In this document: positions 15,764 through 41,064 of the stretch, piece by piece
How the letters are laid out: every line of letters starts with the position of its first letter
Position numbering within the stretch: the first letter of the stretch is position 1
Assembly: GCA_030654175.1 (NCBI GenBank)
Contig: JAURXZ010000030.1
Coordinates: forward strand, 186,001 to 250,000
Source of the DNA: Bacteroidia bacterium
GTDB lineage: Bacteria > Bacteroidota > Bacteroidia > 2-12-FULL-35-15
Direction of reading: 5' to 3'
DNA length: 64,000 bases
Made by a program: the position numbers and the translations under genes
The notes under the pieces: generated by a model
Told to the model about the DNA's origin: nothing
Databases searched by the model: none
Seen by the model: the letters and a program-made list of their open reading frames with translations, nothing else

Positions 15764-15870
15764 CATTTGGGCGTTCTCCTTCTTGAAAAAGAAGGAGCGG
15801 GCTTTACACTTCAATCTTCCCTACCGCCTATTGGCGGCAGGGAAGGATTTCCGTTGCAATCCCTAACGCA
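15764..15870 (+). repeat. Structured intergenic element, copy A (between mreD and mreC)
   Basis: Opening block CATTTGGGCGT; hairpin 1 CTCCTTCTT/AAGAAGGAG; middle block CGGGCTTTACACTTCAATC; hairpin 2 CTTCCCT-ACCGCC/GGCGGC-AGGGAAG; closing block GGATTTCCGTTGCAATCCC then TAACGCA. Terminal GCGT and ACGC can pair. Three more copies lie in this window (36750-36839, 40965-41064, 45749-45848). It is oriented opposite to the mre genes around it. Confidence 0.9.
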
Positions 15871-36749: not shown

Positions 36750-36839
36750 CATTTGGGCGTGCCCTATGGGCCGGGCTTTCCACTTCAATCTTCTCCGATA
36801 AAGGATCGGAGAAGGATTTCCGTTGCAATCCCTCACGCA
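36750..36839 (+). repeat. Structured intergenic element, copy B (upstream of the adenosyltransferase gene)
   Basis: Opening CATTTGGGCGT; short hairpin 1 GCCC-TAT-GGGC; middle CGGGCTTTCCACTTCAATC; hairpin 2 CTTCTCCGAT-AAAGG-ATCGGAGAAG; closing GGATTTCCGTTGCAATCCC then TCACGCA. Same architecture as copies A, C and D but with different stem sequences. It lies opposite to the flanking minus-strand genes. Confidence 0.9.
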
Positions 36840-40964: not shown

Positions 40965-41064
40965 CATTTGGGCGTTCCTCTTTCTTGAAAAAGAAAGAGG
41001 TCGGGCTTTTCACTGCAATCTTTTCTTAAACAAGAAAAGGATTTACGTTTCAATCCCTAACGCA
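40965..41064 (+). repeat. Structured intergenic element, copy C (upstream of the E1 gene)
   Basis: Opening CATTTGGGCGT; hairpin 1 CCTCTTTCTT/AAGAAAGAGG; middle CGGGCTTTTCACTGCAATC; hairpin 2 CTTTTCTT-AAAC-AAGAAAAG; closing GGATTTACGTTTCAATCCC then TAACGCA. An 8-bp perfect hairpin ATTCCGAA-ACAAC-TTCGGAAT (41076-41096) follows at once. Opposite in orientation to the flanking minus-strand genes. Confidence 0.9.

Follow-up and report, generated by a model that had tools for sequence, protein, structure and literature searches.

Four copies of a structured intergenic element lie in this 64,000-nucleotide stretch of DNA (hereafter the window), which raises the question of what they are and whether their conserved folding serves an RNA or a DNA. 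A sequence check recovered all four at the coordinates, and with the conserved blocks, that an earlier note had described. That note knew no named family for them, naming Flavo-1 for comparison; we found with cmscan that all four are Flavo-1 (Rfam RF01705), at 54.1-65.1 bits against a gathering threshold of 42 bits (E 6e-9 to 6e-12 for the window), and that the strand had been given in reverse: copies 1-3 have Flavo-1 on the minus strand, and copy 4 has it on the plus strand. A full-element model, R2, which replaced an RNAalifold model (R1) that captured only 8 pairs, matched exactly these four copies in the window at 70.7-77.8 bits; it was trained on 41 full elements, namely window copies 2 and 4 and 39 loci from the exact pattern scan described below. 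The copies are as follows.

15764..15870, minus strand: copy 1, full element; RF01705 54.1 bits, R2 71.5 bits, DNA fold z -6.75
36750..36839, minus strand: copy 2, full element; RF01705 65.1 bits, R2 77.8 bits (in the R2 training set)
40965..41064, minus strand: copy 3, full element; RF01705 54.8 bits, R2 70.7 bits
45749..45848, plus strand: copy 4, full element; RF01705 60.6 bits, R2 71.9 bits (in the training set)

Copy 4 is inverted relative to copy 3, with about 4.7 kb between them. Flavo-1 was described in 2010 as a computational RNA candidate (Weinberg et al., PMC2864571) and its function is not known; the conserved base pairs that define membership are present here and covary. A literature search by sequence string returned no match. 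The four copies are thus members of a known family without known function, in an extended form, and what is new is the full architecture, a frame family that crosses phyla, support for a DNA element that folds on one specific strand, and a rule governing the orientation of neighbours.

The Rfam model describes part of a larger element, a three-way junction with a CCCAAAT tail that is made up of the Flavo-1 arm, a second hairpin and an outer stem (GCGTT/AACGC). On the Flavo-1 strand the window copies read TGCGT(T/G)AGGGATTGcA[A/G]CGnAAATCC - hairpin A - GATTGaAG[T/C]GnAAAGCCCG - hairpin B - [A/C]ACGCCCAAAT. The arm pair and hairpin A are common to both descriptions, and every window copy exceeds the gathering score; the pairs of RF01705, however, cover only the one junction arm that carries hairpin A, whereas the outer stem, hairpin B and the tail belong to the element here too. 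Copy 2 illustrates the layout.

36834..36838, minus strand: GCGTG, the outer stem's 5' arm; its partner is CACGC at 36757-36761, in a stem that covaries across copies
36814..36832, minus strand: first arm, GGGATTGCAACGGAAATCC; a conserved block whose R and Y change in step with the second arm
36791..36813, minus strand: variable hairpin A (TTCTCCGAT...ATCGGAGAA), from the fold; pairing is kept though the sequence varies by copy
36773..36790, minus strand: second arm, GATTGAAGTGGAAAGCCC; carries the motif TTGNARYGNAAA as the first arm does and pairs via two GNA/GNA internal loops
36762..36771, minus strand: variable hairpin B (GCCC TAT GGGC), from the fold; outside the pairs of the Rfam model
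36757..36761, minus strand: 3' arm of the outer stem, CACGC, from the fold and covariation
36751..36756, minus strand: unpaired 3' tail, CCAAAT; the CCCAAA edge is conserved in a cross-species profile

DNA folding of each copy bore out the three-way layout that had been proposed, including the outer GCGT/ACGC pairing and the AATC/GATT extension of the second hairpin. Fold z-scores on the Flavo-1 strand ranged from -3.4 to -6.8 as DNA, with none of 200 shuffles equalling any copy, and for every copy that strand folded more stably than the complementary one; z-scores for folding as RNA were -2.1 to -7.0. In elements from many genera one motif recurs in both arms, which pair with each other, R with Y, flanked by two symmetrical GNA/GNA internal loops.

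That folding is selected, as the earlier note had argued from compensatory changes in four copies, holds across genomes. An alignment of 41 sequences had 73 double changes, a number reached by none of 500 shuffles, which gave 19.6; in it 96.1% of cells were paired and 8 pairs changed on both sides; sliding the partner by one base dropped pairing below 48%. Among 153 elements the first R/Y arm pair was GC in 112, AT in 38, GT in 3 and AC in none, and the second CG in 99, TA in 49, TG in 4 and CA in 1. Outer stem pairs, which occur as CG, AT, TA and GC, were Watson-Crick in 192 of 204 elements at pair 2 (shuffle maximum 172) and in 200 of 204 at pair 5 (shuffle maximum 190). Because the pattern used to collect sequences fixed GTTAGGGATTG and AAAGCCCG, pairs within those blocks are uninformative. 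Orthologues of copy 3 in this genome and in a relative, G017, differ by a compensatory AT-to-GC change. Hairpin B can also be enlarged: at one locus (L428 10380-10526) it carries another common palindrome, of the CCTCACCCC...GGGGTGAGG type, and several elements of the relative G022 carry the same enlargement.

How widely is the element dispersed? Four copies is correct for the window, yet the whole genome holds at least 134 Flavo-1 matches in 5.1 Mb, with 150 of 1322 candidates scored. Copies are up to 96.8% identical and their flanks are no more alike than chance. Loci from other genera, 79 in all, have sharp edges on either side (TGCGTTAGGGATTG ... AACGCCCAAA). Many copies in this genome are preceded by a weak extension at the 5' side, about 16 bases long (TTTCATTG..AATGCT). 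Presence is patchy between related species: copy number within the genus is reported from 0 to more than 80, and many related genomes lack any copy. Copies 2, 3 and 4 are kept in G017, which is 86-92% identical; copies 2 and 4 are absent from G339, and G022 lacks copy 2 and has one element where the other genomes have none. No flanking direct repeat that would mark a target-site duplication was enriched in 165 elements. A clean empty site at base resolution was not found among comparison genomes, which were too diverged; in one such comparison, a Flavobacterium pair (G123/G328), 11 kb was collinear in the stretches compared.

The elements themselves also change in place. In G017, the first arm of six elements (L477-L482) is interrupted at one common position by a nested palindrome of 43 bases, an insertion absent from this genome (G000) and from G022; two of the six sit where G000 has a plain element. 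At one site shared by two Algibacter genomes (L254 6270-6361, L255 2406-2499) the frame and flanks are identical and the inner hairpins differ, which points to exchange between copies.

To ask which nucleic acid folds, we considered the mismatches tolerated within stems and the placement of copies relative to genes. Summed over paired positions on the Flavo-1 strand, G-T outnumbers A-C by 23 to 6 (exact two-sided binomial about 0.002, with related copies not independent), an excess that indicates folding of a single strand, whether DNA or RNA, and that is not expected if both strands of a cruciform mattered equally; it is equally expected of an RNA. Gene context, counted in 21 stretches of this genome with genes called by a simple ORF rule, showed no preferred direction: 47 intergenic elements were tandem-sense in 16 cases, tandem-antisense in 17, convergent in 8 and divergent in 6, and one further element lay within an ORF. 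The sense placement of all four window copies, which had suggested an mRNA 3' end or terminator, is therefore chance given the genome-wide 16 sense and 17 antisense, and the 47 copies rule that candidate out; with no fixed direction and no conserved T-run past the 3' edge, the features of an intrinsic terminator are absent. A replication-strand bias is at most hinted at in one complete genome of Flavobacterium type, with 26 of 41 copies on the same replication strand if the origin is assumed at position 1. The absence of a fixed gene direction, together with one-strand folding, makes a dispersed element of single-stranded DNA likelier than an mRNA element, so that of the earlier alternative, RNA or single-stranded DNA, the selected folding stands and the choice narrows toward DNA.

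We lean, by little more than an even chance, to reading the four copies as members of a family of dispersed DNA elements without coding sequence, each about 90-110 bp long, which resembles REPs and MITEs in behaviour and includes Flavo-1, and whose folded strand would be copied as single-stranded DNA by an enzyme supplied in trans. The folded strand may be exposed as single-stranded DNA at replication forks or in transfer; an enzyme acting in trans, probably a single-strand-handling nuclease or transposase, would recognise the three-way junction, presumably through the two GNA/GNA purine loops and the unpaired CCCAAA tail, and would copy the element into AT-rich intergenic DNA without target duplication, after which recombination between copies could swap the inner hairpins. 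Since no cognate enzyme was found, this mobilisation route is one that we infer beyond the dispersal pattern itself. Rfam types Flavo-1 as an sRNA gene, and a structured RNA acting in trans or in cis would account for covariation that includes G-U-type pairs on one strand, for the RNA fold scores and for the original listing as a candidate ncRNA (PMC2864571). We consider it improbable: orientation relative to genes shows no preference, more than 100 copies have no conserved promoter region, sequence conservation ends at the edges, and a conserved U-run after the hairpins is absent. In the F. psychrophilum transcriptome, moreover, Flavo-1 hits lie indistinctly sense or antisense, without a consistent strand, and frequently outside transcripts (PMC9723704). 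The element would, from its sequence and placement, behave as a copied DNA that folds single-stranded into a three-way shape rather than as a regulatory RNA. Were the enzyme a REP-associated tyrosine transposase (TnpA_REP, RAYT), the copies would be its REP sequences, in keeping with their high number, extragenic position and hairpins with internal loops; the GT[AG]G foot is absent at the hairpin, the element edge being TGCGTTAGGG, and Bacteroidetes subclass 2.6 is likewise reported to have atypical, non-GTAG repeats without the foot (PMC6006769). The two RAYT-like genes of this genome, however, each have repeats of their own on both sides, which differ from Flavo-1, and no Flavo-1 copy lies beside either, and we reject the link for this genome; nor do Y1 transposases track copy number, one genome (G033) having 27 copies and no Y1_Tnp match. 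A RAYT origin is accordingly very unlikely. The repeats at both genes (L034 1230-1306 and 1965-2041, G000:C16 near 685 kb; L035 1117-1248 and 1812-1897, G000:C27 near 97 kb) are atypical palindromes and themselves fit the Bacteroidetes subclass described with non-GTAG repeats.

The copies resemble REP and BIME sequences served by TnpA_REP in being short, extragenic and high-copy, with a mismatched hairpin and alternating orientation; they differ in having a three-way junction, no GTAG foot and no flanking RAYT, and their inverted mates lie 1.5-5 kb apart, not tens of bases. With MITEs they share dispersal, a lack of coding sequence and a short terminal inverted repeat (here GCGTT/AACGC); unlike MITEs, they show no detected target-site duplication and no parent transposon among the loci read.

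Flavo-1 was first described as restricted to Bacteroidetes; the frame reaches further. An exact pattern scan matched at least 118 stretches, with loci listed in Bacteroidota and in Spirochaetota, including Treponema and Leptospirales, where one contig scored 42.0 bits with RF01705. Model R2, trained on elements of Bacteroidota and Spirochaetota, detected the frame twice on a plasmid of Paraclostridium (63.5 and 58.6 bits; RF01705 56.7 and 49.1 bits) and four times on an IncN2-type plasmid of E. coli (35.5-43.4 bits, E 3e-7 to 2e-5), and gave weak scores or none for Pseudomonas- and Burkholderia-type relatives found by BLAST. Matches in E. coli were on plasmids only, in 68 of 5,426 genomes; in a plasmid collection, 604 of 702 matching records were conjugative. 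The four copies on the IncN2-type plasmid (L179, NZ_CP116912.1; 2571-2657, 32835-32922, 33950-34037 and 34573-34660) all point in the same direction and lie in or near the leading region of this conjugative plasmid. That region is of the type that carries the CUP repeats of IncN plasmids (PMC5371602), a likeness in position, the four frame copies being in or adjoining it; CUP repeats are described as bearing promoters and standing at operon 5' ends; the element here is about 90 bp. Between related plasmids, homology stops exactly at element edges (L177 near 4034, with similar Pseudomonas plasmids; L179 32835-32922 in E. coli), and we discarded such breakpoints on IncN2 and P. syringae plasmids as evidence of insertion, recombination between repeats explaining them. 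Rfam's sRNA-Xcc1 was considered as a name for the proteobacterial form and rejected, since it did not appear in a cmscan of those loci and adjoins symE in Xanthomonas. Viral contigs contributed 41 matching stretches, located, for instance, behind a terminase gene or between genes for structural proteins; three Bacteroidota phage contigs (L315, L317, L324) have one element each in such positions, and relatives without it. One phage group includes both relatives with an element at the site and relatives without it, their intergenic DNA being too diverged for base-level comparison.

How copies are arranged relative to each other proved less easily explained. Of the 32 cases in this genome where neighbouring copies have less than 5 kb between them, 28 show opposite orientations (p 2e-5), whereas neighbours at least 10 kb apart are inverted in 35 of 70. 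Random placement would give 16.3 close pairs, and 31 were counted, about twice that number. The same tendency was found elsewhere, in 10 of 12 close neighbours from four other genomes, 8 of 9 from diverse genera and 1 of 3 in a Flavobacterium-type genome, that is 19 of 24 combined (two-sided p about 0.007) and 47 of 56 under 5 kb across all genomes tested. Inverted mates are no more similar than random pairs, which rules out local duplication as their origin. The genes between mates are core genes, such as those for aspartate carbamoyltransferase, a succinyl-CoA-ligase-type protein and an EngA-type GTPase; close inverted elements flank single core genes at L428, L429, L431, L434 and L439 and at window copies 3 and 4. 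This rule is the main unexplained regularity and is not predicted by plain transposition; counter-selection against nearby direct repeats could explain a lack of direct pairs, not the inverted excess.

One account of the pairs is that the host maintains them, BIME-like, with inverted copies flanking a core gene or operon as protein-binding, topological or fork-related sites, their structure selected for that role and not for mobility. The distance-dependent inversion, the surplus of close pairs, the dissimilarity of mates and the core genes between them all speak for it, and we still think it unlikely, given the many related genomes without any copy, the occurrence of both +- and -+ arrangements, the uniform direction of all elements on the two E. 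coli plasmids examined, and the part of the bias that deletion purging nearby direct repeats would give. Mates 1.5-5 kb apart, and plasmid homology that breaks at element edges, might instead suggest the ends of gene cassettes or attC-like recombination sites that bound a movable segment; here the segments between three checked pairs are syntenic and element-free in G339, with the same genes together, and the plasmid breakpoints are an outcome of homologous recombination between repeats. An attC site has the order RYYYAAC ... GTTRRRY on one strand, the reverse of the element's GTT before AAC; that order is absent from the element, which reads GTT ... AAC on both strands. With G339 synteny and the core genes, the cargo-cassette reading is largely refuted, and attC-like function of any kind has very little probability left. 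Tentatively, the elements could be a cross-phylum class of DNAs that fold as one strand into a three-way junction and that are inserted, or retained, in inverted pairs about core genes; the inverted-neighbour rule would then reflect fork-coupled insertion or a so far undescribed paired function in the chromosome. Long retention at orthologous sites, and presence in phages, could also indicate a host or phage function.

Flavo-1 ranks by copy number with the more abundant of the bacterial 'small RNA' families in the catalogues, and it is annotated as sRNA, a type against which the evidence here favours a DNA element. If it is one, many sRNA annotations in Bacteroidota would be wrong, and a cross-phylum family of repeats structured as single-stranded DNA, found also on plasmid backbones of the antibiotic-resistance type, would stand without a known enzyme. 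The inverted-neighbour rule is a simple and testable regularity that bears on how the repeat spreads or on what it does in the chromosome.
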